From Mytilus galloprovincialis (Eukaryota > Mollusca > Bivalvia > Mytilida > Mytilidae): a DNA stretch of 64,000 nucleotides. Under the pieces are notes generated by a model. That model had not been told where the DNA came from and did not search any database. It saw only the letters and a list, made by a program, of their open reading frames with translations. How positions within the stretch are numbered: the first letter of the stretch is position 1; every line of letters begins with the position of its first letter. Location of the stretch: positions 50,782,833 through 50,846,832 of the forward strand of contig NC_134851.1 of assembly GCF_965363235.1 (NCBI RefSeq), read 5' to 3'. Of this stretch, positions 1,247 to 36,255 are shown piece by piece. Made by a program: the position numbers and the translations under genes.

Positions 1247-4200
1247 CTGTGAATATCCAAACGAGAGACCAGTAATTGAGAAAAGAATTTCCCCCACAGT
1301 TATAACTATATACTGTGGTACCATGACCAACATAGACAAGGAGTTCTGTTCTACACTGGTGAATAACATTAGGTTTGTCTGAAATAAACAACAGTTATAA
1401 CTATACACTGTGGTACCATGACAAACATAGACAAGGAGTTCTGTTCTACACTGGTGAATAACATTAGGTTTGTCTGAAATAAACAACAGTTATAACTATA
1501 TACTGTGGTACCATGACAAACATGGACAAGGAGTTCTGTTCTACACTGGTGAATAACATCAGGTTTGTCTGAAATAAACAACAGTTATAACTATATACTG
1601 TGGTACCATCACAAACATGGACAAGGAGTTCTGTTCTACACTTGTGAATAACATAAAGTTTGTCTGAAATAAAGACAACAGTTATAACTATATACTGTGG
1701 TACCATCACAAACATAGACAAGGAGTTCTGTTCCACACTGGTGAATAACATTAGGTTTGTCTGAAATAAACAACAGTTATAACTATATACTGTGGTACCA
1801 TCACAAACATGGATAAGGTTCTACACTGGTGAATAACATTAGGTTTGTCTGAAATAAACAACAGTTATAACTATATACTGTGGTACCATGACAAACATGG
1901 ACAAGGAGTTCTGTTCTACACTGGTGAATAACATCAGGTTTGTCTGAAATAAAGAACAGTTATAACTATATACTGTGGTACCATGACAAACATAGACAAG
2001 GAGTTCTGTTCTACACTGGTGAATAACATTAGGTTTGTCTGAAATAAAGAACAGTTATAACTATATACTGTGGTACCATGACAAACATGGACAAGGAGTT
2101 CTGTTCTACACTGGTGAATAACATCAGGTTTGTCTGAAATAAACAACAGTTATAACTATATACTGTGGTACCATCACAAACATGGACAAGGAGTTCTGTT
2201 CTACACTGGTGAATAACATTAGGTTTGTCTGAAATAAACAACAGTTATAACTATATACTGTGGTACCATGACAAACATAGACAAGGAGTTCTGTTCTACA
2301 CTGGTGAATAACATCAGGTTTGTCTGAAATAAAGAACAGTTATAACTATATACTGTGGTACCATGACAAACATGGACAAGGAGTTCTGTTCTACACTGGT
2401 GAATAACATCAGGTTTGTCTGAAATAAAGAACAGTTATAACTATATACTGTGGTACCATGACAAACATAGACAAGGAGTTCTGTTCTACACTGGTGAATA
2501 ACATCAGGTTTGTCTGAAATAAACAACAGTTATAACTATATACTGTGGTACCATCACAAACATGGACAAGGAGTTCTGTTCTACACTGGTGAATAACATT
2601 ACATTTGTCTGAAATAAAGAACAGTTATAACTATATACTGTGGTACCATCACAAACATGGACAAGGAGTTCTGTTCTACACTGGTGAATAACATCAGGTT
2701 TGTCTGAAATAAAGAACAGTTATAACTATATACTGTGGTACCATGACAAACATAGACAAGGAGTTCTGTTCTACACTGGTGAATAACATCAGGTTTGTCT
2801 GAAATAAATAACAAGTTATAACTATATACTGTGGTACCATGACAAACATAGACAAGGAGTTCTGTTCTACACTAGTGAATAACATCAGGTTTGTCTGAAA
2901 TAAAGAACATGAAAATAAAACAATAATACTTGTCTGATAAATAACAGTAAAACTTGTACAACTGAAAATAATCTAAAATGTTTTTATCCAAAAAAAAAAC
3001 CACCTGATAATGTATTAATGTTGCAGGTTATCAATAATTGGTTATAGTGTATTGTTTGCAATACCTTGTCATCAAGTTAACAAAACATTTTTTGGTCATT
3101 TGCATGTGTTCACAACGATAAAGGTTGAACACATATAATGAATTAAGAGTGCATTTAGTGTTTTACACAGCTTCTGGGTTTTTTTTTTAACACATATTAC
3201 TTTTGACTTCTAGGTGTTTAAACAAATGATGAAAATTAATCTTCCACCAGAATTTCTGTTGTAAAGACAGGCTGCATATGACACATTTGTCTTTTTATGA
3301 TTACTTTATATCCAAGGATAAATTTGAAAGGACATTTCTATGTAATAAAAGCTTTGATATACCAGTACTTACTTTGCTATTTTCATTATATAACAGAAGT
3401 GTATATATTCCACCTATACCCAACTTGACAGTAGACACCAGACTCCAATCTGTTGCATTATCACCATTCTTCGGTAACTTATAAACTTCATAACTGTTAA
3501 ATTAATTGTTATTAGGTAAACAGATAGTAAATTTTCATTACAGCAAAATGATTCAATACATCATCTCTAAACATCAGGCCTAAGTCATGAACAGACCCTT
3601 CATATTAAGAATGTTCTATTGAAGTAACAGTAGATATAATGATGTTGTTTTACAGCATAACTTATAATTCTTAAGGTGGTACCCAACACCTTAACTAAAA
3701 TTAATTTGGCTCGTTTAATTTTCATAAAATTTTGACTAAGTATTTACTTTAACCCTTTGACAAAAATATAAAAATTTCAAAAAATTTTAACCAACCGTTT
3801 TATCAGAAAAATTACACTGGTTATATAGCAGTTTGACAAACACTTATTTTGATCATCGAGAAGCTTAATATTCCCTAAACAACACAACGTAATTAAAACG
3901 TTTAGCTGATTTTACAGAGTTATCTCCCTGTAGTGTTAGGTACCAAATGATTATTTTATCTATATTTGGTAGCTATTGATTTGTTTAATTTCTCCTAGAT
4001 TTTCCATTTCCAGTAACTGTGATGACAATGTTATTATTATTCATAACAAAAGAAAATAATGTTCATCTGTTTTATGTAAAACTTTCCTCTTTAATCCTTC
4101 ATACAGATTCACACAACAGGAGATTAAAGAAATATTATTTTGCACAAAAAAGAGAATTTACACAGGGAAAACCATGCCAAAGTTTAAAAATTACAGCTTA

Positions 4201-7200
4201 TTAATTTACAAATAGAAATATCATCTTACCTTTCAGGTTCTAAAGACAGGTGGGTGTGGTTTTTGATATCAAATGTGATCCCTGTTTTCTCTGTAACAGT
4301 ACCAGTATAAGTAGTTGGTACCAGTTTCACACTCCCTATAGAATTATCCATATTCATAACACTGAAAAAAGTGTGCAGTTTTATAGAAGTTGTATACAAT
4401 AGTTGTACATGAGTCTTTGCTGTTACTCCTAAATTCTGCATACTTCGTAGAGAAGCAGCAAATACCAATTTTAAAGTCTTTGTTTTGACCTAGCCAAGGT
4501 TCAAACAAACACCCTCTGATGACCAAGCTGAACATGCTACCACTTGTGACCAGACCACAACACCACTGATACAATATAGAGATGTGGTAGGATTGCCAAT
4601 TTTCAAATGAAGTTGATGTAAGCAATTATTGGCAACAGTATGGCCTTCAACAATGAATAAACCCATACATTATAATTGACTATAAACTGCCATGAAATTA
4701 TCAAATAACTTCACTGAGAAATTTAACGTCATAATTTATAACAAAACAAAAATTGTAAAACAAATGATCAACTGACAACCACTGAATTATAGGTTCCTGA
4801 CTTGGGACAAGCACATACAGATTGTAGTAGTTACCAAAGATTAACCTTCATCACCAAGGACCACAGATTGACCCTAATAACTTAAGACAACAGGTTGACC
4901 CTGATAACCAAGAACCAAAGTTCTCAAAACAAATTATTCTTTCTACTTGATTTCCAATCCATTAGGCATAGATTTGGTGATGCCAATTACAAAAAGTAGG
5001 TATAAATAACCCATTATTGGATTTCTGAAGTTACAATTTACCTTCTCCTTTAGAAGAAGATACCACAAGGGTTTAAAAGAGAGGCTATACCATGACATTT
5101 TTGTGCAAAAAAAAAAACCTATTCTGATGTTTCCATTTTCTGTTGATCATGATTTATGGGAACATATCACAAAAGGTAAAACAGGTAAGATTTTTAAGAG
5201 ATATATTGGAATCTTCCAAACATTATAAAAGATATATTGGAATCTTCCAAAGATTATAAAAGATATATTGGAATCCTCCAAAGATTAATAACAGATATAT
5301 TGGAATCTTCCAAAGATTAATAAAAGATATATTGGAATCTTCCAAACATTAATAAGAGACATATTTGATTTACCTTATTAAAGCATTTCCTTCTCCTGAT
5401 TTCTTTCTTTGATCCTTTATCTGAATAAAATAGGAAATATTATTGTACAATTTAATAAACATAGGATTCACTTCTTGATATTTCTGTGAATTTGTGTCGT
5501 GCACCCTGTATACCATCTCTATATGTATGATTAAATTTGCCTTACTCGTCTATTATATAAATTGAATATTTCCAAGCAGGCAATAAAAAGAATTAAAATA
5601 GCATGTATACATTTATTTACTGAATCAAAGCCGTTAAGAGATTCATTAGATCCTCTTGAACTTAAAAAACATTTTAATAGTAAATTTACATTATTATTTG
5701 TTTGTATTGTAAAAGTTCTATTGGTTATCAATTTTGTTTTGAGCAGTGTACATGTTGTAATCAAATTAATCTGAGGATAAATAAGTTACTATTGTGAACT
5801 TTTACAAAAGGAACTTTTTTCTTAGGACTCATATAATACCGTTAAAAGAAATAAAGCTGGATGATACACACTTAAAGGTACCTAAATTATCTCCCTTTAT
5901 ACTACCCCTGGACAACAAAGAACAGAAAGAGTGGTTCCATCATCTTTCAATATTAAACAAATGCCCCTGTTTGCATGCAACATCATAAAGGACATAATTT
6001 TAGAACGGTAAAAGCAATGCGACTCAATTTTAAACTTGATCTGTATTTTGTTGTAATAAGCATTATGTATAAGTTTCATAACATTTGGCTGTCAGAAGCA
6101 AAGTAAAGTTTGATTGCGGAAACCAGTTTTGGGATCAATTTTGGTATTGTGGCAATAGAGCAGGCATAAAAATGAAACCGTTCAATACAGACACAAAGTA
6201 TACCCACCTTAATGAGATCCAGTGACGAACTATTGTTTTGTAAAATAACAAGTCTATATGAGTGACTTCCTATGAAACTAAATGTTTTAGAGATATTTTC
6301 TGTAGAACAATCTGCTGATATATTCCATGTGATATTGCCAGGTGAGAATTTCTGAAATTCACCTAACTGAAAAAAATTAACAGTAGTACAATGTATTATA
6401 CTAATGGTATTGTTAAAAAGCAATACTTCATTCCTCAATAAAATAAAGTTAAGATCTAAGCATAAAATAAAGAAGTTTTCATATCCAAGTTATTCTTTTT
6501 TTAAAACTAGGGTTCTTGATAATGAAATTTTTCAACAATCAGTTTAAGCTTATACATATGTATGTGACATCTATTATCTATATATCATAGAGTCATGCTT
6601 TGACACATGGAACTCAATCTTTATTAAATTCACCATAACAAAACCAATAAATATTCTTCAGAAAAGATATACAGCAATATATATACCTGAAGACTGTGTA
6701 TACTCTGACTGTAGTGGGCTGAAGAAACAGATGCAGTACATGGTAACACATTGTAATGAGTTATACCTATTTCTGTAGTAGTTAAAGGAGATTCAAACTG
6801 ACTCTGAAAATAAAACAAATTGGTCATTTAGAATAACTGTTTACTATGTTAAAATATTCAAGAATAAAATTAAACTGACCTATTGTACGTGATAATGATC
6901 CACCAAAATTACATAAACTAACCCAGCAAAATAATTTAAATGATATCATATGATACTGATGTTTTTTTCTGGAGTTTCATTGAGTTCATAAGATTGAGAA
7001 GTCATACATGTAAAATATTAAGGAGCATCAATCAAGAATATTGGCAGGAACACAAAAACAAGGAAGGCTTGATAAGCAGGGTTATCACTATTATACGAAA
7101 TTTTCAATTGAGTAAACTACCTGATAATTTCCACAGTAGAGTAATATGAAAAATTATCGCTAGAAACTAAGGGTGTAAATGCCGGTCACTGAAATCAACA

Positions 7201-8045
7201 TTGTCATAGGTGAAATAGAGATAAACAGATTCTTATTTGTCATCTCAACTTGATTGCTTCCTCACTTTCGCCGTACAGGCTCAAGCAGTATAAAATCGAT
7301 ATTGTTGAGATGACCAATGATATCTATAATAAATAAATGACTATATATTTTCTGTTTTTTCATTGGCTAAAAACATAGGATATCCTCTTTGATAAAACAT
7401 TTTATTACATTGGTTGCAATGAATTACATTGATTTCCCAGTTCAATAAAAACCGATAATTTCACTTGTGAAATAAACGTGGTTATTTCACTCTCAGACGT
7501 CATACAACAATAGGTGTTGTCAAGACGTCGATAATGGTGGATCAAAACAAATTGTGAATGTGTAGAAAAAAGATATAGTTCTACATTAATTTCTTAAAAA
7601 AAGCCATTTGCCAATGTAATAAAAAGAATAACTAATTAAATAATTCAAATATTGAAAAATATTCAACTCGTGACCGAAAAACACTGATAATTAACTCATG
7701 CGCTTCGCACATTTGTGAATTGATGTGTTGTTCATTCACTCGTTGAATATTTTTTCTCTATTTGAATTTTTCGATTAGTTATCCTATAAATATTCACCGC
7801 GTAAAAAAATCATTATTGGTTACCTAAATATAGATATTCCAAGGCAATATCAATGATGTATGTTTATGACATCATGAAAATTCTGTTTTTTTTCTTTTTC
7901 TTCTTGTTTTCAGTGTATTTTTTTCTCCTAGCTCTTGTTGTTTTTCGATGTTTTTTAAATAGAAACTTTATTGATTAGGCCTAAAAAAAAAAGATATGTG
8001 TTTCCGGTAACATCATTTTGAAAAATAGGGTCGGTAGGTCGGAAT

Positions 8046-8080
<35 letters not shown>

Positions 8081-11000
8081 ACATCGTAAATGAAATCCGG
8101 AAAATTATCATGGTTTTTCCAAGTCCGGATCCGTAATTAGTTTCAAAAACCGGAAGTGTGCCATTTGCAATGTTTTTGAAGCACCTGCTGTGCAAATTTC
8201 TTGGATTTTAACCTATTTGGAATACCTTTTGACATTAATAAAATGTTTTACTGGCTTTATATGCAAGTAGAAGCAAGAGAGAAAAAATATTATGTCATCT
8301 ATCAGAAGCCTGTGTCAAAAACGGGGTTGGTTGATACAATTTTTTTTTTTTTTTTTTGAAGATCCAATAAAAAAGTTAGGGTCGGGGCTAAAAAACAGGG
8401 TCGGTCGGGTTACCGGAAACATCGATCTTTTTTTTCTCGGCCTTATTTCAACTTTTGAAAATTAACATTCAAAATCAGATAATATATCGAGTATACCTGT
8501 TTTAAATTTGTACAAATTCAAGAAAGAGAAAAAAGTCATAAAATAAAACAATTGTTGACTTTTGATTTCCATTGATGCAATGATTTATCAACCCCAGTCT
8601 GCACGGTTAACAACTACTCCAATGCCCCAGACTAGTAAAATTTCATTCAGACTAGTAAATTTTTGCAAAACTTTATTTGGCCCAATAAGAAAAATGACAG
8701 AATATTGGTCTTCAGACTAGTAGTTGAAAAAGTTTTTGGCGCAGACTGCAACCCCAGAGATATAACATTCACCCTTGGCCATTGACCCTTATGGTTTATA
8801 AATCATTGTTTCAACCTCATCAAAAGTCAAAAATTGTACAACATAGAGTTTGTTCAACTTTGTCTAGAGAAAGTAGCAAACCTTGATTTAAGCCCATACA
8901 TTTATATTTCATATGAATATTTGTGTTGTAGATTGCTGTCTTATTCCAATTGCAAATAACTAGATGAAATATTAAAAGAACTTCAGAGGAAAATTTATTC
9001 TTTTATAAAAATGGTTACTTCCCTTTCATTGGATACTAATACTGTTTTCTTGTGTTAACATTTTATTTGCCCTTACATCAATTTCTGTGACATTTGTATT
9101 TGTATGTAGCACATGTAATTAAAGAACAACAAATTAATTACCATTTTTCATAAAAGATTCAACATTATTTGTTTAATTCAATATGACATAGGATATACAA
9201 GATATGCATCATTTACATGGCATCCCAATATACCCCAAATAAAAACTCTCAAGACATCAAAATTATTCACATTATAAAAATCTAAATTACACTGTTTAAA
9301 ATATATAGAAACTTTCACTTTATATGCATAGGACAAAATGCTTAAAATGTTCTATTATATAAATATATAAGGTTATTTCATTTAACTAAATTTACCCCTT
9401 CTAGCAGGTGTGATTCTTTATTTTTGCTGTGACACACTTGCATCTATTAAGAAGTGGTAGATTTCCATGTTTAATTAATTTACTCACATTTATTTTAAGT
9501 TGCACAAAGCCTGCCATAACAAAAGCTATTACCGACAAAAACATTCCTGCAACCATTCTCTGTAGAGGTCTGAAAAATACAAAATACCAGGGTGGATTTA
9601 AATCCTGAAATTATTCTAAAATGTATAGAACCTTTATCAAACTTTTCTGCAAAAATTAGAAATAGTTTCCATATATATATGTTAATAATCATGATCTATC
9701 ATTCAATTTTAAACAGACATTTGTGGGCTGTAGCTCTGTAATAAAAAAAATCTGAATAAAAACTAAAATGTTGAATCAAATGTCTTCCAAAATATAACTG
9801 GTACTCTACATCAGCTTCAATGCTCAGAGTGAGGTGAGGTACTCTGAAGTGAGGTCAGCTTTTTGTATTTATGTTGAAGACTTTCTGTTTTGAATTTTCC
9901 TCAGGGTTTAGTATTTTTTGTGATTTCACTTTTCATTGTGACTTTGGGTGTTTGTGTTTTTTTAACTGTTATTTTGTGTCATGGATGGATACCCCATATC
10001 TTTTGTTCATACTCACCTATTAGGAACTTTACATTTATCCAAACACGGATAAATCAATTTTTCAAACAGTGGTATAAGTCCTAATATCAGGATAGGATTA
10101 AGTGCCTACAAAGAAATCATTTAAATTTCATTACAATACAGATTACTTGGAAGAATAAGGGTCCTATAAACAGGTTGGTTAAAAAGCTTTTATGCAGCTA
10201 CATATAGTATATGTATGAACGTTTTACATGTTCTGTTCCTAATGTTGTCTAGGTTGGGGTTCTACTCTTTTTCAAAATCATTTTAGGAATGACTGTAATA
10301 TTTTTTCTGTCTATGAAGAAATAACATAAAAAATGTGGTGCACACTGAATAACGCGCGTAGCGGGTTATTTAACAGTGTGCACCACATTTTTTATGTTAT
10401 TTCGAATAGACAGAAAAAATATTACAGTTATTTCTTATAATTTAATTCTAAATTCCATTTTAAACCATAGAAAACCATGAAAAAACATTGATGACGTCAC
10501 GGTCACATGACTAAATTATGTCTATGGGCTCATAACAAAATAACGTCAGCCAATCAGAAGACATGTTACATCCAAAATTAAATCATATCTGTATACAAAT
10601 ACTGTGGATTCATTTATTTTAGTGGGTATCATTTTTCCTGGATTGAGGAAAATTTGCAGTTACATGGATATTTGATTTCATGGTTTTGTAAATCTATGCA
10701 TGCAAAGCCTATAGAAAATTTGTAATTCGTAGAACATTTAAAATTGTGGTTCGGCTGTACCCAAAAATTGATATCCAACGATTAATAATAATGAATTACA
10801 GTAACTAATATTTCATTTTTTTCTTTGTAAAACCTTTGTTGTAGCACATATTTATAACATAGTTTTTGTATCTTACCTGCAATTGGTCTGGCTTGATTCT
10901 TCCAAGAGGACCCTGCAAAGGAAATAAAATTGAACAATGCCTAATTAAAAAGCAGTTATATGTTGAAAATGTTTGTATTAAATCTCATTCAGACAAGGTT

Positions 11001-14000
11001 TCAACATCAATGTTTGTATTAGGTCTCATTCAGACAAGGTTTCAACATCAATGTTTGTATAAGGTCTCATTCAGACAAGGTTTCAACATCAATGTTTGTA
11101 TTAGGTCTCATTCAGACAAGGTTTCAACATCAATGCTTGTATTAGGTCTCCTTCAGACAAGGTTTCAACATCAATGCTTGTATTAGGTCTCATTCAGACA
11201 AGGTTTCAACATCAATGCTTGTATTAGGTCTCATTCAGACAAGGTTTCAACATCAATGCTTGTATTAGGTCTCATTCAGACAAGGTTTCAACATCAATGT
11301 TTGTATTAGGTCTCATTCAGATAAGGTTTCAACATCAATATTTGAAAGTCATAGAGATACTCCTCTTCTTAACTCCCAACAGTTGTGTGTATAAAATTTT
11401 ATGCTTAACAACCAAGACACGTTTTTGGTTTTGCACCAAGAATATCACCTGTTAACCTAATAGCTTGAAACTTGGGAGGGGTCTATACTATATCCTGAAG
11501 TAATTATGTGTATAAACGTCAATAAGAATTGACTGTGTAAATAAGTCTGGCTCTATTTTGACAAGGTGTGTTAGCTTCCCATTTAACAAATATATGCACA
11601 ATCCATGTAGACAAAATACTATAACCATATCTCTTAAAGCTTTTGTTCCAAGGGAATATGAATACATTGTACTTTAATGGTATAGAAGTTAAAACAATAA
11701 CATACCATGCTGCCATCTAACTGTTCTGCTTGTAAAGTCCATCTGGATCCCTATAGAAAAATGGAAGGTAAATAAGTACTGTTCTAATATGTTTTTAAAT
11801 GTGATAGTTGATAAACAGCTGACTATGCAGTATGGGCTTTGCTCATTGTTGAAAGTAATACAGTGAACTATAGCTGTTAATTTCTGTGTCATTTGGTCTC
11901 TTGTGAAGAGGTGTGTCATTGGCAGTCATACCACATCTTCTTTTTGATATAAATTCTGACTTTTTTTATAGAACACAAATTTCCTTAAGTGCTTTAGAAA
12001 CCACAAATATCCATGTATCCTTGAAAGTTGTTAACAATGAAAACAAATAAATCCCTGTTATCTAAAATGCTTAAAACATTGAACAAGAGCTGTGTCGCTC
12101 ACCTTGGTCTATGTGCATATTAAACAAAGGACACAGATGGATTCATGACAAAATTGTGTTTTGGTGATGGTGATGTGTTTGTAGATCTTACTTTTACTAA
12201 ACATTCTTGTTCCTAACAATTTTCTCGTTCTATATAGACTTGGCCCTTTAGATACAGAGGAAAATATTTTGTAAAAATTTACAAAAATTTACCAAATTTA
12301 TGAAAATTGTTAAAAATTGACTATAAAGGGCAATAAATCCTTAAGGTGTCAACTGACCATTGTGGTCATGTTGACTTATTATTAGATCTTACTTTGCTGA
12401 ACATTATTGCTGTTTACAGTTTGTCTGTATCTATAATAGTATTCAAAATAATAACCAAAACAATTCCAATTGGGGGGCAGCAACCCAACAACCAGTTGTC
12501 CAATTCATCTCAAAATTTCAGGGCAGATAGATATTGACTTGATAAATGATAACAAACATTTCCTGAACTTTGGTCTTGTAATACATTAAGCTATACAAAC
12601 CTGTTGATCACCAAGAGCCCAGTATAATGGCAAGGGTACACATATGATTAACACTTTTAACAGACGTTTTACTTCTTCCACAAAATCAGCCTGAAAATGC
12701 AATGAAAATATTTAACAAGTGAATCTGTAAGCTACTGCTTACTAATGATACAGGAAGTTGTTGAGTGATGAATCTGAAAAAGCATCACACAGTTGCTGAC
12801 TCACATAAACCCTGAAACCAACTTTCAGAAATCCTTGTAATGTAGATCCTGAGAAAGATTTGACCGAAATATTCATGGGACAAAGGATGGACTGACAAAT
12901 AGCCTGAAGGATGAAATGACAGACATACATATCTTCTTTTTTTATATATATAGTGTATTAGGTCACTAGCACACTGTGTTACAAATTGATCTTACAGACT
13001 ATCTTCACATGTGGTATTTAGGCTAGTGGACTATCAAAGTGATTAAGTCTTCAATTTTCAGTATTAAGAACCTACTTTTATTTGTCATACAAAAAACAAA
13101 TGCCAACTATAACAACTTGCATTTCAATCATTTTAAATTTGTTTCCTGAATTTATTTCAATCGTACATTATTAATTCCTTCTTCTGTTGAAACCTTTCAG
13201 ATTTATTTTATTTTGTTTTGAAAGGGAAGTACTTATACCACTTTCAACACCGGAAAGTAAGTTTTTGTGGAGGAAAGTCTAAAAACACAGACTTGGGCAG
13301 GAAAACTGGCAAACCTAGTCTTCTTAAATCAGAGTCAAAAACACATTGCAATTAAAGTGATTACAGGCTAATTAGAGTGTAAATTAACTACTTAGAACAT
13401 TTGGTCTACAAGACTCCTGAAAAAATTTGAAGCAGCTAGTATAAATTTGTAAAAACTGATTTATCATATATCAAATATGTGTCCATATGTGTAAATGTCA
13501 ACTGCCTGCTACAGAGTCTTTGCACTCATTACCTCAAAAAGTCCAATAGAATGATCTAACCAATGTGGTCTTTTATCTGGATGTGAAATCTTCCCTTTTA
13601 TACCATACTACAATTATAAAAGAAAAAAATGGTAAAATATATAAAATGTCCTTGGATAGCATATATACACAAACATAACAGTTTTGTAAAAAATGTTTAA
13701 ATTTCTAAAATCTAAAATCAAGTTTATGGTTGAATACTCAAATATTTGACAACAGCAACTGCATATTTTAGTATTTAAAGATAAAACTTTTTTGAAACAT
13801 AAATTACTGTAAAATATAAATCTCAGACAACAAAAGAAAACATTGAAATATAATAAATAATCAATTTATTGTCATGAATGATGCAATCATAGTTAGAAAC
13901 TTAGATCAAGGCATTATAATTTGACAATAATTAAACAATAAAGTATAAAATACTTTTTTTGACTTCATTAGAATTTCTTTGAAAATTTTGGACACCACAT

Positions 14001-17000
14001 ATAAAATCCCCAACTAAATAACAATGGTAACTAGGACGGTTCATTATTGTGGGAGAGATCCGTTTGCGCCAAAAATGCTTCCTTTTGCGCCACAACTTTT
14101 TTTCTCTAATGCTACGTTTGCGCCACCTGTTTAAAAATTACATGGTATCAATTGCGCCAAAAATAAAATATACGATTGCGCCAATTTAAAGAAAAACATT
14201 CCTTAAACACAGAAAATTTTTTCTATTAGTTTCCTGATTTAGAAGGCAAAAGGCAATCTAAAAGTGGAATATAAATTAAATGTCCATTCCTGAATCCATG
14301 TATTGTATGCAAAAACATCTTCTGCCCCGCATACAAAGAAATTTAAAGTTAGCTTCACAACCGAGAATAACAATGCCACTGTCATATCATTTACTAAAAC
14401 AAACTCTTCTTCTTTATTTGTGATCACTATACCTCACTTAACTTTTTTGAAATTCTACTGAACTTTTTGGTTGGGCAGGGAACAGTTATCTTCTCTCTCT
14501 GTACATAGACTGTCTTATGCACTTCAAGTCATTTTTCTGTAGATGTTCCTCTTCATGATGGAATAGCTCCGCACATATGATCTTAGCTGATCTTTCGGAT
14601 ATATTTTCTGTAGCTTTTCTTTTGCATGCTGTTCGTAGTATTTGACGCTCTAACTTTTGTGGGTCTGTCTCATGTGTATGTGCAAGACTTCCCCTCAGAC
14701 AAAAATGATACTAAATATATATTAATCTTTAATATGTACGATCAATATGTGTTCAGGTGAATTGGCGCAAATGAGTTCCGAAAACTGGCGCAATTGATAC
14801 ATTTGAAGAAAAAAAAATTGGCGCAAATGATACCCCTGAAAAACAGTAATTGGCGCAAAAGGAGTGTTGCCATTATTGTGGACCAAAAATACTTGTCAGA
14901 TATTAGTTCAATCAATGTTTACTACCTACATGTACTTATTGAGCTGAAACTTAATTAAAGCATACAAGAACACCCCAATAAAGTAACAAAAAGAAGAATC
15001 CATTTTCTTGACTAACACAACACCATAACTGACAGTGCCATGAATTTATCAGTTGAAATTTGCAGTCAAATAAAAAACGCATAAGATATTAAATTGGCAG
15101 CTAAATTGTTAACATACATTAAATTAATTATAAAAATACATTTAAATACCCTATCATTGAGGAAACCAGTAGTGGGGGGGGGAATCATTATATTACTTTA
15201 TTACTTACAAAAAAAAAACCCCATTTAAACACTCTGACAATGAGGTTACAAGTGAGGGGAATTGTTATATTACTTACAAAAATACATTTAAATACCCTGC
15301 CAATGAGGTTACCAGTGGGGGGAATCTTCTTATATAATCTCCCACCTGCTATAAATATCACTGAAAACATTCAAGTAAAAGTAATTATTTATATAATATT
15401 TGTTAAGGTAAACCAAAGTTATTCATGATAATCAACTAGATAAATGTGATGGAAGTGATACAAAAATCACATTTACCAGGTAATGTGTTATTGTGTACTA
15501 TCAGCTGTAAATGCATACAGAACATCCAACTGTAACTATGCAGATATCTTTTTTTTATTTGAAAATATGGTGTTGATGACACATATTTGATTGTTTCAGT
15601 TTAATTAATGCACATTGTTCATTGACTAAAAACACCTAATAACTTGACATATATATCAGACTGCATCTTATGCACTAGATGTCTTTTGTTTATTTTCGTC
15701 ATTAAATTTCTGTCTCATTAATGTATCCTGCACGTTTTCACTGATAAGCAGCCAAAATAACTTCTTAAAAAAGGTTGAAAATAGTTTTTATCAAGTTAAT
15801 TTTAAATAAAAATAAAATTGAGAATGGAAATGGGGAATGTGTCAAAGAGACAACAACCCGACCAAATAAAAAACAACAGCAGAGGGTCACCAACAGGTCT
15901 TCAATGTAGCGAGAAATTCCCGCACCCGGAGGCGTCCTTCAGCTGGCCCCTGAACAAATATATACTAGTCCAGTGATAATGAACGCCATACTAATTTCCA
16001 AATTGTACACAAGAAGTTTGTTTGATTGTTGGTGTTAAATTCCATTCATTGGATATATCATGGCCGATTATTTATTTTATTGTTGGAAGAAGCCTGAGTG
16101 ACCTGGAAAGAAGGACGACCTTCAGTAGGAAAAATGGCAATTCTTGTCAGATAAGATTAGATTCAAAAACACCACTATCAGTGTCAAAAAATGACCAGGA
16201 TTCATAGCCACATCCTCAGTGCTGACAGGGAAGTAATTTCTGTTGACAAACTACTGAGAATGCCAGTGGCTGCAAGTTTTTATTGAATAATTCACTTTCA
16301 ATTCAAAATTTCATTTTGTATATAAAAGTAAGAAGATGTGGTAATACAAATTAAAGTACATGTTTTTACAGATTTTGAATCTGTTTGACTCCCTCATCCA
16401 TTTGAACAATAAACATAACAACCCATGATTATTTCCAATCACAGAAATAAGCAGTCACAAAACTGCAATATTCTCGAGTATGGTAGAGACAAATATGACT
16501 ATTGTTTAAATGTTTATAATAATTACTTAATGTGACATGTTAAGAGCAATTTAGCATTGCTAAGTCATGTCATGTAACTTACCAGCAGAAGAAATCATCA
16601 GAATAGCTGGAATACCAAAAGCTAATGGGTAACATTCTGCTCCATAACAATGAACATCAGCTGTTGGAAAAAAACAAATAAACAGCAATATTAAATAAAA
16701 TTTAATTTATAGATTTCAAGCTGACCAAAGTGGTTTATTCAGGTTCTTTCCTTCTTCTTCTTCTTCTTCTTCTTCTTCCGAATACAGGAGTAGACTCCTA
16801 GGTAGGAGTGTAAAACTTCCCAGAACTTAATTTAAAATTAATATATCAATGAAAAATAGTTCATTTTATTTTAATGTTCTTACAGTAGCACAAATGTATA
16901 AATTTATAATATTTTTTTTCTCCAGTGAACTGTGCAAAACTCTGATCATATGCATACTGTGTGTTGTCTCATGTAAAGCCAAGTGCCTTCTTCAATTATA

Positions 17001-20000
17001 ATTATTCTTTTCATGTTCTTACATTTAAAATAATTCTAAATTAAAATTACTAGAAGAAATTTCCTGTAAATACTCACCTCTGAGGATTGGAGTCAGTATA
17101 ATTGAAAACATACTTCCTAAGTTTATCATGAAGTAAAACACAGAGAAGAAGGTTTCACGTTGTTTTTCCTAAAATATACAAATTAAACAATTTAATTATT
17201 CACATGAAAGCAGTTTTGACATTCCTATTTTTGTTTGTTTTGATTTTTAGTTCAGTTTAATACTTATTTATATATTATAGATATAGGAAGAAGTGGTGTG
17301 AGTGCCAATGAGACAACTCTCCATCCAAATAACAATTTAAAAAAAAAGTAAACCATTATAGGTCAATGTATGGCCTTCAAATATTCTTTCAATTAATGGA
17401 CTTTATTTAGAGGATGAAAAGTTGTTTTCTTCATAGTGTACTTGCTATTTCTGTACCTCTAAATGAGAAACACAAATATGTGTGCAAATTAAATATGTCT
17501 GTGCACCAATCTTGGACACAGAGCTATTTTTTGATAATTCACTAAAACTTATGTGCTTTTTGAATGACCAGAGAACTATGCAGTAAATTAAACAGTATAC
17601 TATCATCTATTTCTGTCATTTCACATCTTTTATCACAACATGTATACAATATAATTGTTTCTGGATTAGTTAATTTAGATTGAAGTGATAAAATAAATAA
17701 AAATTTACCCAAGCAAAATGAGTAATTGCCAAACTGACTTAAAATCAGACAGAGGTATTTGAAGATGTAATTTGGTTCATATGCAAACAAAATTAACATT
17801 TAAGGGGAGATAACTTTGTAATTTACTATCATTCTAACCAAAGTTTATTAAGTGATTTTTCGAATTACTAGACTTGCAGAAAAACAGGACTACAATTTCT
17901 AATTTAGGGTGAGGGTAACATAAAAGAAGAATGCCGGATTCTTACAAAGACTGGTACTCAAAGAGACAGTAGGATGAATGATAAATAGAGTAATATCAAA
18001 ATTAGGAAAATTCCTTACTTGTTCTGGTCTGAACTGGTCAGCACCAAAGGCTGCTACACAAGGTTTTATTCCTCCAGTACCAATTCCAATCAGGATTAAT
18101 GCAATCATTGGCCCAATCCTACATAGTGAAATAAGAGGTTTCATACAGTACTGTAGCTGTTTTACAACATTTTCTTACTATGATAATTGATTGTTTTTAC
18201 ACTGAAATTTTCATGATATTTTAATTTTATAATATATATATATATTATTATATATAAGGTCCAAATCCACCATTGAGTACAGTCAACTGACTTCAAAATT
18301 TCTATTTTTAGAGATCTTGGGTTATTGGGTAGTGAACTTTAGAAACAGGGGATTAATGATGAATGTAACAAATGCATCACACTGAAAATCATGCTCACAT
18401 AAAGGATTAACACCATATATCAGATAGTCTTGATTTATAGCTCTAACATGGACATTAAGTATTGGGTAAACATTAAGTTAATGAGGGATGAATACAATAA
18501 TGCATTGCACAGAATTCCATGTAATGATGATGTCCAAAATTAAGAAAGCCTGATTTGTAATTCCTCAGAAAAATGTGCTGAAAATTTCAAACATGACTAT
18601 AGTGTCACAGATTATTCAGTAAACAGGTAGTTTAAGTATTTATACACGAGACAGCAAGCAGTAAAATATCAACATAAAGGACAAACCCATGGTAAAATTG
18701 GTATAAATTCAAGCCCCCAAAAATTATTTCTATACTAATAGGACAAATATGGCAATTCTTTTTAATTGAAGCGCTTTAGGTGAAGGCAATATTTGCCATA
18801 ATTAATAAATAAATGCACAATTACATTGACATAACAGAATGGAGCAACCTGAATTAGTGACATACTTAAACTAACTACAATAACATATTTAGATTGTTTT
18901 TTTTTATGATTCCTTGTGTTTATGACTTTCGGTTTCACAAACATTTATTTTATAGTACAACACTTATATTTTTAGGTCTTCTTTCAATGACGTCGAGTAG
19001 CTCATTCATTAAAAAAAAATATATGACATAAGAGTATGATCAGAACAGCCCAACCAATGTATTCATATTTTACTACCACAGGTATGTACTCAACGAGTTT
19101 GAAGAATGTCATATTAAAATCAGTTTTTATTTAAATTCAAAGGTTGAAAACTATAATTTATCATATACTTAGCATTGATATGATAGCTTTTGCATATGTG
19201 TAATGAGGGGAAGTACACAAGTCATAATTTCCCACCCAGGCTGATAACCCATATCAGGGGCATCTTGTGCACAAAACCCATAATAGTGCCTCTCGTGCAA
19301 GTTACTTCCGGTGTTTCCGGTATAGGTTGTTTACTTTTCCATTGTGACGTCAGATATTTTTTATGACGACGTCAAAATTTACAGGAACTTTTGTGGGGAT
19401 AGTTAAGTACTTGGCTGCTAACAAATGCCATTGACAATTATGAATCATTTTATAGTACAACAAACATGGAGTAATAATGATCATAAAATTCTTCTGAATT
19501 GTCAATGTTTCAAAATGCCTCTTTAGGAAATGTTACCATAAATATATATGGAGGTAGTAATGCTGTTGTTGGACAATTATAATATATTTGATTCATAATT
19601 CAACTTCTTTATAAAGTTTTTGACTGTTTAAGTTATTGCATTTGTTTATTTGCCTTACATAAAACTATTGTCGGAAGTATATGATAAAGCAATTAATACA
19701 TGGCCTTTTCCATATCAGCCTGGGTATCATCCCTCGACCCATATCAGCAACTCGACTCTGTCTCGGGCTGATATGGGGGTCTCAGGATGATACCCAGGCT
19801 GTACATAATACATGTATTCATAAAAGATAATTTACCATTCTGGTGGTGGTACTGCTGTTGCTGACATTATAACATTTCCTATACCATAAATAATACTCAG
19901 ATATAGTATTGTCCTGAAAAATTAATGTCAGACATTATAAAGTTTCCAAAACCATAAATAACACTTAAAAATCATTTCACCCCTACTATCATGACTATAA

Positions 20001-23000
20001 AATGGAAAAGTTTTTAGTGATCTCATGTCATAGTGCTTTTTTTTAAGTTTTCTATTTTGATTTTTTCTTGAAAAAAGAAAGACATTCATAATCTTTTCAA
20101 ATTATCTTATCAATAACCTTATAGATATTAAAATGCAAATCTATTTAAAAAAAAAGTATTCACTTATACAGCTTTACAATAAATTCTTCTTTGATAAATA
20201 TGGATTATACACAGCTATTTCTGGAATATTATTATAATGCACTGTTACACCATGTAGATCACTTTATATATGTCACATGATTTTATCTGTATCAGGTAAC
20301 CATCAGCAATGATAGCTCTAAACAGAGGACTAAGGTAGCAGAGGAACACATAACTTACCTGTATCTACACAGGTAACCATCGACAATGATAGTACCAAAT
20401 AGAGGACTAAAGTAACAGAGGAACATATAACTTACCTGTATCTACCAGGTAATCATCGGCAATGATAACACCAAATAGAGGACTAAAGTAACAGAGGAAC
20501 ATATAGCTTACCTGTATCTACCCAGGTAACAATTGGCAATGATAGCTCCAAACAGAAGACTAAAGTAACAGAGGTACATATAGCTTACCTGTATCTACAC
20601 AGGTAACCATCGACAATGATAGCACCAAATAGAGGACTAAAGTAACAGAGGAACATATAACTTACCTGTATCTACCAGGTAACCATCGGCAATGATAACA
20701 CCAAATAGAGGACTAAAGTAACAGAGGAACATATAGCTTACCTGTATCTACCCAGGTAACAATTGGCAATGATAGCTCCAAACAGAAGACTAAAGTAACA
20801 GAGGAACACATAACTTACCTGTATCTACCCAGGTAACCATGGGCAATGATAGCTCCAAACAGAGGACTAAAGTAGCAGAGGAACACATAGCTTACCTGTA
20901 TCTACCCAGGTAACCATTGGCAATGATCGCTCCAAACAGAGGACTAAAGTAACGGAGGAACAGATAGCTTACCTGTATCTACCCAGGTAACCATCGGCAA
21001 TCACAGCTCCAAACAGAGGACTAAAGTAACAGAGGAACACATAACTTACCTGTATCTATCCAGGTAACCATTGGCAATGATCGCTCCAAACAGAGGACTT
21101 AAGTAACAGAGGAACACATAACTTACCTGTGTCTACCAAGGTAACCATTGGCAATGATTGCTCCAAACAGTGGACCAAAGTAATAGAGGAACACATAACT
21201 TACCTGTATCTACCCAGGTAACCATCAAAATGATAGCTCTAAACAAAGGACTAAGGTAGCAGAGAAACGCATAACTTACCTGTATCTACCCAGGTAACCA
21301 TCGGCAATGATAGCACCAAATAGAGGACTAAATTAACAGAGGAACATATAGCTTACCTGTATCTACCCAGGTAACAATTGGCAATGATGACTAAAGTAAC
21401 AGAGGAACACATAACTTACCTGTATCTACCCAGGTAACAATTGGCAATGATAGCTCCAAACAGAAGACTAAAGTAACAGAGGAACACATAACTTACCTGT
21501 ATCTACACAGGTAACCATCGGCAATGATAGCTCCAAACAGAGGACTAAAATAGCAGAGGAACACATAGCTTACCTGTATCTACCCAGGTAATCATTGGCA
21601 ATGATAGCTCCAAACAGAAGACTAAAGTAACAGAGGAACATATAGCTTACCTGTATCTACACAGGTAACCATCGGCAATGATAGCTCCAAACAGAGGACT
21701 AAAATAGCAGATGAACACATAACTTACCTGTATCTACCCAGGTAACCATTGGCAATGATCGCTCCAAACAGAGGACTAAAGTAACAGAGGAACACATAAC
21801 TTACCTGTATCTACCCAGGTAACCATCGGCAATGATAGCACCAAATAGAGGACTAAAGTAACAGAGGAACACATAACTTACCTGTATCTACCCAGGTAAC
21901 CATCGGCAATGATAGCTCCAAACAGAGGACTAAAGTAGCAGAGGAACACATAGCTTACCTGTATCTACCCAGGTAACCATTGGCAATGATCGCTCCAAAC
22001 AGAGGACTAAAGTAACGGAGGAACACATAGCTTACCTGTATCTACCCAGGTAACCATCGGCAATGATAGCACCAAATAGAGGACTAAAGAAACAGATGAA
22101 CACATAACTTACCTGTATCTACCCAGGTAACCATTGGCAATGATCGCTCCAAACACAGGACTAAAGTAACAGAGGAACACATAACTTACCTGTATCTACC
22201 CAGGTAACCATCAGCAATGATAGCACCAAGCAGAGGACTAAAGTAGAAGAGGAACACATAGCTTACCTGTATATACACAGGTAAGAATCGGCAATGATAG
22301 CTCCAAACAGAGGACTAAAGTAGCAGAGGAACACATAGCTTACCTGTATCTACCCATGGAACCATCAGCAATGATCGCTCCAAACAGAGGACTAAAGTAA
22401 CAGAGGAACACATAACTTACCTGTATCTACCCAGGTAACCATCGGCAATGATTGCTCCAAACAGAGGACTAAAGTAACAGAGGAACACAAATCCATGATA
22501 AACACCAGTGGCATTATCTGCATCAAACTTTAACCATTTTGTCAGGTACAAAATTAAAATGGCTGAAATTAAATAATATTACATCACTTTCAAAATGAAC
22601 ATTTATATCTAAAATCTTTAATATCATGAGGAAAGTAATACACAATTTAAAGTTTTTCCAGCTTGTCCCTCAACATAAATGGTCAAAGCCAAAGTAAAAG
22701 TTATACATGTAGTGTGTGTCCTATTCAATCCATATTGTTTTAATATTCACTATGATTTTGGAATATATATCAATTTAAATGATAAGTTTTTAAATTGGAC
22801 CCAGACTATGTCAAATTTAACAGGGCAGTACTGTGAGTACTTCGAGCTGCTTAGCTAGGGAGAGAGAGGATAACTTATATATGCACATTATTTTTTCTAT
22901 ATATTCTGATACAAAATCCGACCAAAAATACAGTTGCCTGTTGGTTGTAATTGCTAGTTAATCATTTGCCTAATTAATGGAATCTAGAGACAACTTGCAT

Positions 23001-28594: not shown

Positions 28595-28675
28595 AGAAAG
28601 GAGACAACTCAAAGCGATAATATGGAAGACTCCATTTTGGCTGAAGGGGTGTTCTAGTTACACCTTTACGTTGTG
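28595..28675 (-). other. Candidate non-coding first exon of SLC15
   Basis: On the minus strand this segment ends CCTTTCT followed by a strong GTAAGTAAC donor, and the SLC15 start exon is preceded by an acceptor-like TTCTATTCTAG, so a spliced 5' leader is likely. The segment contains GCCAAAATGG followed by a seven-codon extension and TGA, a possible short upstream reading frame. No transcript evidence is available; the call rests on splice-site quality and local base composition. Confidence 0.25.
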
Positions 28676-29423: not shown

Positions 29424-30124
29424 TCTTGCATGTTATCAAAACTGGGGAATTCCCTCTGGCATGTTTCTAAATTTATAAAACACTAAATATAAAAACTGCT
29501 TAATTCTGATTTTCCGTGTTGTTAAAAACATGCATACAAGTCAAGGGAAATATCGACACATGAAGATTATGAGAAGAACATTATAGGACAGTTGTTTAAA
29601 TTCAATCCTTTTGTTTTTATACCATTTAAAGCAAGACAATCTCAAGAATCCGAAATGTTCCTTGATGTTTAGAATAAAACAGTTGACGTGAGGGCATGGC
29701 CCTGAGACAATGGTATAATTCTACAGATTGCTTAAAAGCAATTGTATCCCAAAAAATCTAAATACATGGTTAGATTCAGCATATCAAAGAACCCCATATA
29801 TTCAACCTTTGATGGAAATAAACAAAGTCAAATTTTACATCACAAAACAAATATTTTTCTGTCACAGTGTTCTATGATGCATTTTCCTTGTCAATGACCT
29901 TGTAGGTCAAAATGGCAGTTTAATTATAATATGGAAATGTGTCTGTTGTCCCTAACTAAGTCATGTCAGTAACTGGTTCGATGTTGTTAGTGGACCAGAC
30001 TTAGCCTGGGGTAGTCCAAATAATTTTGACATATTGAAAGGCTATTATATTTTTTTCTTTGATGCCTTACATTGATGCAGGAAGGTGTCAAAGTAAAAAT
30101 TTAAAATTTAAATCGGATTTACGC

Positions 30125-30480
30125 AAATCAAATCAAATCAAATAATTTTATTGGTGTAAATTCCTATACAGAAATGATACCAGCTGACATTTACAAAATA
30201 CAAATACAAAAATAAACAAACAAACAAACAAACAAAAACTTATTTTCTCAATGATAAGAGATACATATGTTATGCATGAAAAAGCACAGCTGGTAAAATT
30301 ACAGTTGGCTAACAACTTTACCATTAGTTTTCAAAGCATCTGAAAACTGTGAATTGTCAGCCCGTGTCTCTGTAGCACCATAAGATTCCATGCATTGGCA
30401 GAGAAATTTATCATTTATAACTATGACAAGAATTTCTGGTATTGTTTATAGTTTTTGCCACTTGTCAAATTAATTTTCCA
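30125..30480 (-). mobile_element. Possible 5'-truncated non-LTR retrotransposon tail
   Basis: Read on the minus strand the segment ends in a short (TTTGA)n microsatellite, a common 3' end of non-LTR elements, preceded by a CAAACAAACAAA-type simple repeat in the other orientation. A short open stretch ends in SQL and a stop. No reverse transcriptase motif is visible, so this is a weak call. Confidence 0.3.
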
Positions 30481-30722
30481 GAATCTGACTCAAAAGAACG
30501 TTTGACAATATTCTAAATCCCAAAACGTACACGAATTCGAAAAATTATGGACTGGCTTTTTTGTTTTTCCTGAAAGAAAAAATAATCCCAGTCAATTTGA
30601 AAACACCATAAAATATAATTCCCTGTTATTTCTACTGAATTCTTCAAAAAGACCATCGATTTTTGTATTCGAAACTGTTAGTCTCAACCACTTCAGCATG
30701 TGGAATTGACCTTGTGACCTTT

Positions 30723-30736
30723 GTTGCCAGGGCATT
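30723..30736 (+). promoter_or_regulatory. X-box-like site upstream of EFHB
   Basis: GTTGCCAGGGCATT, 153 bp before the EFHB start codon, matches the first half of the RFX X-box (GTNRCC, spacer, RGYAAC) and departs from it at the last two bases. RFX factors commonly drive ciliary genes, which fits EFHB. One half-site match in A+T-rich DNA can occur by chance. Confidence 0.3.
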
Positions 30737-30888
30737 GTCAACAAAAGAGGACTTGGAGCAAAGTGGTCGTATCTTTTTGTATATATTGTAGCATTTATGC
30801 TACAGGTAGTTTCATAGATGCTACAAAATCATTCTTGAAATAGGAGTTACAAATTTCGCGCAAAAAGAATACAAAACCACAGAATACA

Positions 30889-33800
30889 ATGTCTTCTGAA
30901 ACTCAAGTAAGGCTACCCAGTCTCAATGGGGGCATATACACTGGCAAATTTAAGGACTGGTCACCATCTCTTCGTCCAGTAAGTAATCCATAATTTGTAT
31001 TTTAAATTAAATCTTCTTATAAGCAAAACAATCATGCAACTGTCTATATTTGTAACAATATAGAATTAATTTAAGACATATTACTATTAGTCACAAATAA
31101 TACACGATTACCATCAGATCATATGTTTTCGTACCTCACATGAATTTGTACCATGCATGCTTTTTTAATGGAAATTTTGACCTCACAATGCATTCATAAT
31201 AGCATGAAAACCCAAGAGATGAGGATATTCAATTTGTCTGCAGTTTCTTTGGTCAGCCAGGATTAGCGATAATTAAGGTGTATTGTTTACGTCACAATAA
31301 AAAATATCTGACACCACAATGGAAAAGTGACCTGTATGATGTCAAAAATTCAACAGCCGCAGATTCTTTGGTCAAGGGGCACAGATTTCCAAATAGCAAT
31401 AAGATCTATTTCAAAACTTTGTTAAACTGTACATGACATAGTCATAATATTATACATTTTGTAGTAATCTGGCTGTAGTGTCATGTACATGCATGCTGTT
31501 AAGGGTACAAGACAAATTATATTTAGCACCTGGTCAAATCGTCACTTATGGAAAAAGTCAAATTGCCATCCAATAATATTTGAAATATTATACATTTTTG
31601 TATATAAATAATTCTAAAAATGTATAAATGATCTATTTATTTTTATTTATTAAAAAAATTATTGGATTTTGATTTTAATTTATCATGCATTACATCGTTA
31701 AAAATCATCCAGCAGATAGAATACATTCATTAAGTTAATTATTTGAAATTTTTTTTACATTCTATGACTGATGAATGATGTATTGATAAGTTTTTTTTCA
31801 ATTAAATTATCAACAAGTTTGTTGTTTAAACACTATACAGGTACATTTGTAGTTATTGATGTTTTATTCCTCAAAAACTTAAATAAAAAACAATGAAGCC
31901 AAAGCTGTTAGAATTAGAAGCAAAACTAGCACTACAGTTGTTGAATGTTACAACCACCACGACTACACAGTTTCCTTGTTTAACTTGATTTTAAATATAC
32001 AATGTAAATGCATAGTTTACAACACAAAAAACTATTTGCTCATATATCAGTGAGCATATCTGAAGATAACGCTGATTTTTGTATGAAGTCTAAATTGTAT
32101 AAATGTATTTATTGTTTATTTCAGGCTGGGAAGCTGACAGTATCAGGAGATACTGCTGAACTATGTATGAAACCTAAAAATGATAGGGTGGGTAAAAAAT
32201 TATAAAAGTTAATTTGAAAACAATGACGAATCAATTCAAAGGCGTTGACTTTTAAATTCATTATGCAAATCTTTTGTTGTCATTATTTTATGTTGGTTGG
32301 TATGTTGATTATAAATGTTTATGAAAAATTTCTGTAAGAAGGTTTATCTGAAGAAGAAAAAATAATCATTCAACTCAGCCACTACATTTATTTGTTGCTC
32401 AAATATAAAATTTTTGAGACAATTATATTAAATTTTTAAAAATTTATTTACATTTAGTCTCCATCAGCTGACATAATTCGTAGATTTCGAGCCACTGTTC
32501 GTCCTGATGCTGGCCAAATGAGGGTGTTTTATGGAAGAGCTCAGGACCCTCACCAACAATGGGCAGCTGAAATGACACATGGCATCAACACAACATCATC
32601 AAACACAGCTGGAGAACTTGCCAATCCACCTCCTAAAACACTTTTTAATCAAAGAAAATTAGACAGAAAAGAAAATATCTATGCCAGTCATATAAGAGCT
32701 CCTCTTGGTATTTCACATGAGCAGTCACATGGTTTACCTAGAGGACTCAACAGGGACCAATTCACATTTGGAATTCCTACAGAGCTAGGTATGTTAGAAA
32801 TAAATTTTCTGTATAATTACATTATTCCTCTAAATTTTTTTGGCATTTTCTATTTCTCAAAGTTATGGTTAATCTCTTATCATACAAATTTTTGTTTTCA
32901 ATGAAACATATTATCAAACAAATTTGTAAAGAGGAAATACATCCTACACAATAATTCTTGAAAGTATGGTAAATATTTTTAATTATGATTAAAATGCACT
33001 GAAAATTGGAACATCAGCTTTTACTTGCAGCATGATTATAAAAAAGATAGATTCAAAAGAATGCAAACATTTGTTATTTATTCCATTTTTCTTCTCATAT
33101 TACCATGGTAGTTGAACACTTTTATTTACATTCTTGTACAAAGAATAAGGGAAAATCAGGGTTTAAAAAAGTCCTCATTTTCCAAGATTTTACTTTTTAG
33201 GCTTTAGCAATAAACAAAATAAATGTGATACTCAAATGAAATAATGTTCAATGCTTTTTCAATAGATATTGGTGCTGGTGGTTTGATAAATCCTAACAAG
33301 ACATATGCTGAAGTCGAGGCAGAATCTGCAGTTGGAATGGAATTATACAGAGAAACACACAAAAACTTTGATGTTGGCGAAAAACTTCATCGTGGATATA
33401 CTCAACCTAGTTTCTTCCCAGACAAAAAATTTGGCATTCCAACACCTCACAATAATGAAGGAATCAAAGTCAAGAAAACTCTTAAATGGATGCACGAAAC
33501 AGAACAAGAAAAGGCAACTAAAATTGTATCCAAACGTGTTGATGACTTCAGAGAAAGATCACAACCCATACTTGGACAAGTGCATGATCCGTAAGGTTTT
33601 CTTAGATATTTGATGATTCTTTCACATTCATCTTTTTCATTTCATATTTTTTATTGCTACTTAGAGTGTTAGTCTCTTTAAAATTTTGATATTTCAAATC
33701 TTTCTAATTTTACATTTTGGTTGACCATTACAAAATTTCAATTTTCAGAGAACATAAAAGTTACATTTAGTTGTTTTAAAAAAAATTTGTTATGAATTTC

Positions 33801-36255
33801 ACATTCAAATTGTTTATATCTAGTATTTATCCCTTTGAGATAATATTAATATTCTTGCTATAATGAATAAACTCATCATAGATACCAGGACTAAATTTTG
33901 TATATACACCAGACGCACGTTTCGTCTACAAAAGACTCATCAGTGACGCTCGAATGTAAAAAAATTTAAAAGGGCCAAATAAAGTACGAAGTTGAAGAGC
34001 ATTGAGGACCATTTATTATCTCCTTGAGCAATGAATTATCTCCCTTTGAGATAATATTGATGGTCTTGCTTAAATAAAATATCTCCCTTTTGAGATAATA
34101 TCAATTATCTTGCTATAGAAGCTAAATGGGTTTATAATATTTAAGTTGCCTCCCATTTAAATAATATTGATGATCTTGCTATATAAGCTAGATGGGTCTT
34201 AGTCTTACATAATGAACTATCTCCCTTTGATTAAAAAAAAAAAAATTCTCACTTTTGTTTTGGAAATGCATTCTAAAACTGTTGGTTATAATTTTCCAGT
34301 AAATATGTACTTTTTCATTAAAAATATTCCCAAGAACTCATGTTAAAAGAATTTGTTATGCAGAAATATTCAACTATATTTTTATAAGAATTTTGCACTG
34401 CGAAAAAAAAATCAAATTTCACGAAATTTTTTCATTAGGAGATATTATTTTAACCTAATTCAGCTTATAAATGTACCTTGCTAAGGGACAAAGCTTTATT
34501 AGCTTGAACTGTAGATTATGTTTCAATCATAAGCATCAGATATACAAAATATTATTGGAAGTAGTTTGAATAATATAATTATTCATATTTGTATTGTTTG
34601 TTGTAGAATTAAAGATACTCTCAAAGTTGGACCTGATCACACCTATGGTATATTAGCCAAACCTGATGAGTATGGCGCTGGTGACCTCATGCATGGTCGT
34701 GCTCCATCTAATTACCTTAGAGGAAAGGACAGACAGAGGGGAGTCCTAGCTGCTATTAGACAACATCTAAAGAAAGCAAATTTTCATAATTTTACCGATC
34801 TTGTGCATGCATTTAGATATTATGATAAGGTAAAGATAAAGGATTTAGATTGGTTTGATATTTTTTCTGTCTTAATTTGAGAGAGAGGTTTTTTCCTTGA
34901 TTTCAGTGGCTTCCTATCATATCAGTTTTGGCATCATAGTTGAGAGGCAAAATAATTATAACCTTAAAATTTGATTCAAGAATTACAAAGTGTACTTTCC
35001 AGTAATATATTGTATTTGAGTCATTCCACAATAGTGGTTTCAAAAAGTTGGACAGTGTTTTTTTTTTTTAAAAGTGCTAGTTTCATGCAATTACTGGATA
35101 TAACAGATAGTTTGAACATTTAACACATGATTTGTAAAAATTTGTAAAAAATGTAACGATCATTACAATGGACACCAAAAATTGTGTCAAAAACTAATAT
35201 CCTAATAAAAAAAATTACCGTCAAGTTTTCTTAAAAAAAATTTTCCAAAAATTTGTGTTTATCTATTAAAAGAGCATGAACTTTTTTTCTTGCTACTCTT
35301 TTATTTTAAAACTTTGGGCTTTTTTTTCTTCTCATTTTGCCAGATTTTAATGGTAACTAATACAATTTTTTTTTATTTGAAATAATTGAGCAAGGTTAGC
35401 ATATTTACACCCAATATGATGCAGTACCTATGATAAGTAATAATTGTGCTGATTAAATATTAACTTACATTTTTGTGTTTTCCAGGATGGTAAAGGTGTG
35501 ATAGATATCAATGATTTACGTGAAGTTTGTATACAGTATCATTTACCACTGGAACCAGAATTATTGGAACAATTACTGGATAGTTGTGATGCCAACAGGG
35601 ATGGAGCAATAGATTATGTAGAATTCTCTAACTTCCTTAACTGGAAAGATAAAATGAAGTCAGGATTACCAGACAAACCAGGTATAATCAATCTTTAATG
35701 TAGAATTCTCTAACTTACTTACCTGGAAAGATAAAATGAAGTCAGGATTACCAGACAAACCAGGTATAATACATCTTTCATTTAGAATTTCTTTCTTCCT
35801 TAACTGGAAATATAAAATGAAGTCAGGATTACCCGATATACCAGGTATAATCAATCTTTAATTTAGAATTCTCTAACTTCCTTAACTGGAAAGATAAAAT
35901 GATGTTAGGACTACCAGACAAACCAGGTATAATACATCTTTAATGTAGAATTCTCTGACTTCCTTTAACTGGAAAGATAAAATGAAGTCAGGATTACCAG
36001 ACAGACCAGGTATAATACATCTTTCATTTTTGCTACAGTAATAAAAACTATTTTTTGGACTTTCAAGCAAATGTCAAATTCAGATTTTTTATTTTAGAAT
36101 TATAAATAAAAAGATAAAAAAATGTGTGGTATGATTGCCAATGACTTAACTGTTTTTTGAAGACCAAATGATGTATAAATTAATAAATAAAGCATCATTA
36201 TGCTTGTTAAGGGTAATTTTTAAACATTTTTTTAAACTTCTGCCTTTTTTCAGTA

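Follow-up and report, generated by a model that had tools for sequence, protein, structure and literature searches.

The structures closest to those described here are the mirages of amphioxus, minisatellite-like tandem duplications of an exon–intron boundary that copy donors as well as acceptors, have units of ~10–160 bp and leave the native exon intact (PMC3087553, PMC3902484). In the cited passages of these two papers, mirages are described from Adh3, TnC and the globin genes BflGb6 and BflGb9, and PGBD5 is likened to them; variation in their length between haplotypes or somatically is also reported, and homogenization within an array, with diverged copies at its boundary, counts among their features. 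The passages cited from PMC3087553 present mirages as known so far from very few genes of amphioxus, where they leave regular splicing undisturbed; they were earlier tied to intron gain, and the mechanism that generates them is called unclear. A related route is described by the AGGT model, in which, according to the passage cited, tandem genomic duplication of an exonic segment leads to intron gain through creation of a new intron (PMC3443670). Our search of the open-access literature for exon-boundary arrays returned amphioxus only and no mollusc case; a paper on Mytilus has gene duplication and gene structure as its subject and, in the sections cited, does not deal with exon-boundary arrays (PMC12294457).

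By their sequence, the arrays of the mussel Mytilus galloprovincialis belong with the amphioxus mirages. Like these, they span an exon–intron boundary in tandem, affect both exon ends (seven donor and four acceptor cases) and have units, at 61–119 bp (n = 11), that fall inside the reported range. They differ from the amphioxus reports in their host, in reaching up to ~28 units, in their occurrence at 5 of 60 sampled exons and in a unit composed mainly of exon, to which a short piece of intron is attached. The new features are the host lineage, how often the arrays seem to occur and the predominance of exon in the unit, whereas the kind itself is known from amphioxus. The mussel arrays also resemble intron gain under the AGGT model, as far as it is described in the cited passage, in being short within-gene tandem duplications that multiply splice sites (PMC3443670), but their units duplicate an existing junction, so that an existing intron grows, and no exon is split by the formation of a new one. 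An earlier note on this DNA had suggested that such arrays, if common genome-wide, would be a distinct way for introns to grow; the suggestion is reasonable as a route of growth, but its kind was already known from the amphioxus mirages and their earlier link to intron gain.

Junction-straddling arrays in two genes

The window, that is, the whole stretch of 64,000 bp that was analyzed (C14:50782833–50846832 in an assembly of 1.385 Gb and 331 contigs), contains two genes that bear such arrays. An SLC15A1/A2-type proton-coupled peptide transporter gene (PEPT1/PEPT2-like) extends on the minus strand from ~23.1 kb to the left edge of the window, and EFHB lies on the plus strand at 32.5–38.5 kb (best E 2.6e-58 to 8snb_3J). 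The models of both genes are our own and incomplete: 13 of the 16 transporter exons used lie under tblastn alignments to human PEPT1 (some of these alignments are weak), and the exons at 6211–6366, 4231–4363 and 3375–3494 were placed by eye. Altogether, 23 modelled exons were compared with their own flanks. Conserved peptide is encoded by the native exons, three transporter exon peptides jointly matching PEPT2 (best E 3.9e-23) and the EFHB exon matching 8snb_3J. Beside EFHB, open frames at 46614–50745 (minus strand) resemble, by eye, a protein phosphatase 2C-like gene; in the human genome, EFHB lies next to PP2D1, and gene order at the EFHB/PP2C-like locus may be conserved.

In agreement with the earlier note, four tandem arrays in these two genes have units that combine the end of an exon and the splice site there with a short piece of intron. 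Three appear in the TRF list, at 1296–2909 (95 bp × 17), 20293–22489 (77 bp, in two rows of 14.3 copies) and 35616–36024 (82 bp × 5); array 2 is absent from that list and became visible on aligning the exon at 15279–15362 to its own flanks. Reading the units confirmed that one array copies an acceptor and three copy donors. The acceptor mirage, array 1 (1296–2909, minus strand), consists of the native unit and 16 upstream copies, each with ~83 bp of exon and ~12 bp of intron; the acceptor and the first ~83 bp of the native exon (1247–1378, minus strand) are copied, and the peptide of this exon, LFTSVEQNSLSMLVMVPQYIVITVGEILFSITGLSFGYSQ, aligns to PEPT1 570–609. Array 2 (15119–15262, minus strand) is a donor mirage of two degenerate intronic copies with a unit of ~63 bp (~48 bp of exon and ~15 bp of intron), for which the exon-to-flank alignments cover 58 and 48 bp, each at 83% identity; its native exon (15279–15362, minus strand) encodes VIFIAGGRLYKKIPPTGNLIGRVFKCI, aligned to PEPT1 214–240. 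In array 3 (20293–22489, minus strand), the 77-bp donor unit of ~66 bp of exon and ~11 bp of intron is present ~28 times next to the exon at 22421–22562 (minus strand; peptide aligned to PEPT1 30–93, E 1.9e-13), and 28 GTAAG[CT]TA donors are found, including the native one. Array 4 (35607–36029, plus strand) is the donor mirage of an EF-hand exon of EFHB (35486–35681, plus strand; aligned to 8snb_3J residues 354–414), with five units of ~65 bp of exon and ~17 bp of intron and five CCAGGTATAAT donors, the native one included. By eye, arrays 2 and 3 retain the donor in their inner copies and have lost it from the last ones, which in array 3 is the distal copy. The copied native exons are uninterrupted by new introns, as judged from read-through alignments to PEPT1 and 8snb_3J. 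It also held true that the copies are confined to the intron side and leave the gene's exon intact, a geometry expected from any junction-crossing tandem duplication.

A fifth case was overlooked by the earlier note. Alignment of the exon at 19827–19914 (minus strand) to its flanks revealed a decayed acceptor-type copy in the upstream intron, at 19931–19972 on the same strand (42 bp, 81% to exon positions 19863–19904, E 6e-8). Sequence common to an exon and a nearby repeat was thus found for 5 of the 23 modelled exons (the four arrays and this decayed copy). Ordinary intronic minisatellites undergo tandem expansion and homogenization, which the mussel arrays may share. The ordinary minisatellites of the window, at 5187–5365 (32 bp × 5.7 by TRF) and 10968–11344 (41 bp × 9.2 by TRF), differ from the mirages in lying within introns only, and neither was matched by any modelled exon when exons were aligned to their flanks. 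Among the eight in-gene arrays, defined as those with units of at least 32 bp within the two genes (seven from TRF and array 2), four cross a junction compared to 0.74 expected by random placement (P(≥4) = 0.0035), a probability that depends on our own gene models and is post hoc because the window was chosen for showing the pattern.

Mirages at other exons and their frequency

A protein search of this one assembly for the window locus matched that locus only. The same kind of structure was looked for at 60 exons of two unrelated families, each taken with ~450 bp of flank. The SNF sample comprised 40 of 99 family matches, mostly the better-scoring ones, and the chaperonin sample 20 of 49; some of the chaperonin stretches overlap one another, and the boundaries used are those of profile matches rather than of annotated exons. 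Local direct repeats sharing exon sequence were present at 5 of the 60 exons (8.3%), namely, the SNF exons L031, L033, L050 and L055 and the chaperonin exon L077. At L033, a single extra copy of ~117 bp lies at the donor of the matched SNF-family transporter exon, in frame and without a stop. Two loci stand outside the count of five: at L082, an array was seen by eye to copy the adjoining chaperonin exon with its donor, and L066 may, with uncertainty, be a further mirage locus. The copies at L077 are absent from the rows of the chaperonin family search; family-search rows alone are therefore unreliable for revealing mirages. We conclude that mirages are present at a fair share of this genome's exons.

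It can be said only in part whether duplications are drawn to junctions. The controls are to some extent at odds with one another. They use our own estimates of effective flank length (36 kb), junctions per exon (two) and crossing chance (0.124, with the unit taken to be 85 bp long). Compared to introns near exons, the five crossings represent an excess of ~5–9 fold over the 0.6–1.0 expected (P 0.0003–0.004); the intron-only arrays in the 60 loci give an expectation of 0.58–0.87 (P 0.0003–0.002), or of 0.66–1.0 (P 0.0006–0.004) with the L082 array taken as intron-only. By array, the junction of a sampled exon is crossed by 5 of the 13 arrays in the 60 loci (P 0.016) and by 4 of the 8 with a listed period of at least 60 (P 0.011). 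An excess at junctions over placement in introns is likely. Arbitrary genomic DNA (21 stretches of 10 kb) contains 47 arrays in 210 kb, ~1 per 4.5 kb, a density that corresponds to 2.3% per junction and 2.8 crossings at 120 junctions versus the five seen, a 1.8-fold difference that is not significant (P 0.15). In a coverage control, a local repeat overlaps 78 of 861 pseudo-exons of 140 bp in arbitrary DNA (9.1%), which is not below the 8.3% of exons; a single long array enters such a coverage count repeatedly and inflates it, and for this reason the array-count control of seed events was added beside it. The duplication bias at junctions suggested in the earlier note is accordingly supported in part, by the excess over near-exon introns and by the exon-skewed units, but not by the comparison with arbitrary genomic DNA, where the excess is not significant.

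The skew of the units is seen across the 11 mirages, in which the exon part measures 34–98 bp and the intron part 8–34 bp (lengths read by eye, with L050 entered as a 68-bp unit, its main spacing being 101 bp). The mean intron fraction is 0.23 versus 0.46 under uniform unit position, a value as low being reached in 30 of 200,000 simulations; for the six mirages outside the window, this was the case in 2,808 of 200,000. Such a skew is not obviously favoured by splicing selection, because a longer intron part would keep more of the native splice context. On a simple reading, exon sequence duplicates readily, and purging spares only those duplications that reach just far enough to take in the splice site. 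Alternatively, the exon copy could be under constraint, so that exon-rich units persist or stay recognizable better, an option that is limited because several arrays are young by identity (copies 95% identical in array 1 and up to 98% at L077).

Predicted use of the repeated splice sites

Translation past the native donor would reach a stop after 1 codon in array 3, 29 in array 2 and 5 in array 4 and, at the other loci, after 22 codons at L031, 1 at L077, 22 at L082 and 65 at L033; six of the seven donor mirages thus have a stop within 1–29 codons. The unit at L033 is open and in frame, and use of its second donor is predicted to add 39 residues. In array 1, with the native frame assumed at the acceptor, use of an upstream acceptor copy would run into a stop within 66 codons for 15 of the 16 copies, the one at 1760 reading further. 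Only two of the 77 8-base windows of array 3 are fully invariant (in 23 of 28 units, those 77 bp long), and both lie on CAG|GTAAG; units were cut at GTAAG[CT]TA, which makes the invariance partly one of construction, yet no double-length unit arose. Splice sites are lost, by eye, in two copies at L031, at L050 and in the final copy of array 2 and of array 3. Periods show no bias toward multiples of 3 (4 of 11), and nothing in the arrays read points consistently to selection acting on the copies.

Origin of the arrays

Our preferred explanation, to which we give a probability of roughly 0.62, is that the arrays are minisatellites seeded by junction-crossing duplication, expanded and carried along as spliced-out passengers, in a genome where exon DNA is duplication-prone and exonic copies are purged. 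The seed would be a tandem duplication of a short segment that runs from 34–98 bp inside the exon to 8–34 bp inside the intron, presumably expanded and homogenized afterward through unequal exchange or slippage. If, as we infer, the junction beside the intact exon stays in use, every copy would fall within the intron, and the copies would be tolerated passengers that lengthen it. In acceptor arrays, it is not evident that the nearest acceptor would be used, because the native branch-point context sits beside the copy most distant from the intact exon. Through a mutational bias, it would be the exon DNA of this genome that is prone to duplication. Duplications confined to an exon alter the protein and would be purged, and those that just take in a splice site would persist, their copies being removed by splicing. 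A filter that tolerates only duplications leaving one working junction, another suggestion of the earlier note, fails on its own to explain the excess over intron-only arrays, because these are tolerated too; it probably acts together with a duplication bias, by removing purely exonic copies.

A different origin would be chance: the genome may be very rich in tandem duplications, with junction-crossing ones tolerated, and a window with several of them may have been happened upon. The array density of arbitrary DNA, with 2.8 crossings predicted and a P of 0.15, and the 78 covered pseudo-exons agree with this, but intron-only arrays near exons are rarer than it predicts (P 0.0003–0.004), and exon-skewed units are unexpected under random placement; we regard it as unlikely, if credible. 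The repeated splice sites might instead act as decoys or in splicing control, for example, through unproductive splicing that tunes expression. For array 3, the invariance at CAG|GTAAG, partly constructed as it is, would fit such control, as would the open, in-frame unit of 117 bp at L033 with its 39 addable residues. The proposed splicing role nevertheless found no support and is improbable, because splicing at a decoy would in most cases introduce an early stop; the structure is also present in a chaperonin gene, sites have been lost at L031, L050 and the ends of arrays 2 and 3, and multiples of 3 are not preferred among the periods.

Copies that keep exon sequence and one splice site would likewise remain if entire exons, for example ones that were once mutually exclusive, had been duplicated and then decayed. 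However, none of the 11 units comprises a whole exon flanked by its two native splice sites; a single exon edge is present in each, and this history is very improbable. We consider an assembly artefact just as remote: misassembly is frequent for high-identity tandem arrays, and copy numbers may be wrong, but the copies differ from one another, those that end arrays 2 and 3 have diverged and the same design recurs at other loci.

Beyond the origin of single arrays, we tentatively entertain a broader and somewhat doubtful reading, that exon edges are hot spots of short tandem duplication in this bivalve lineage and that ~1 in 10 exons carries or once carried a decoy-site array. If this were true, exon-edge duplication would be a leading source of intron growth, and the arrays would amount to a natural experiment on how the spliceosome selects a single junction when up to 28 nearly identical ones are present. 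If mirages are as common in the bivalve as our small sample suggests, they would offer a tractable system for asking how introns lengthen, whether short tandem duplication is an inherent tendency of exon DNA and how splicing handles many identical adjoining sites. They could also mislead gene prediction, as copies may be taken as extra exons.

Several further repeats were observed. In the arbitrary genomic DNA, stretch L022 contains at 6031–6260 a 75-bp array whose unit has acceptor-like and donor-like signals 12 bases apart. Outside the modelled exons of the window, the arrays at 42182–42646 (147 bp × 3.2) and 44706–45298 (145 bp × 4.1) have consensus units that are, by eye, approximately reverse complements of each other. 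At 58930–60977, several overlapping arrays form dense AT-rich palindromic repeats of AAGATATCTT-like units.
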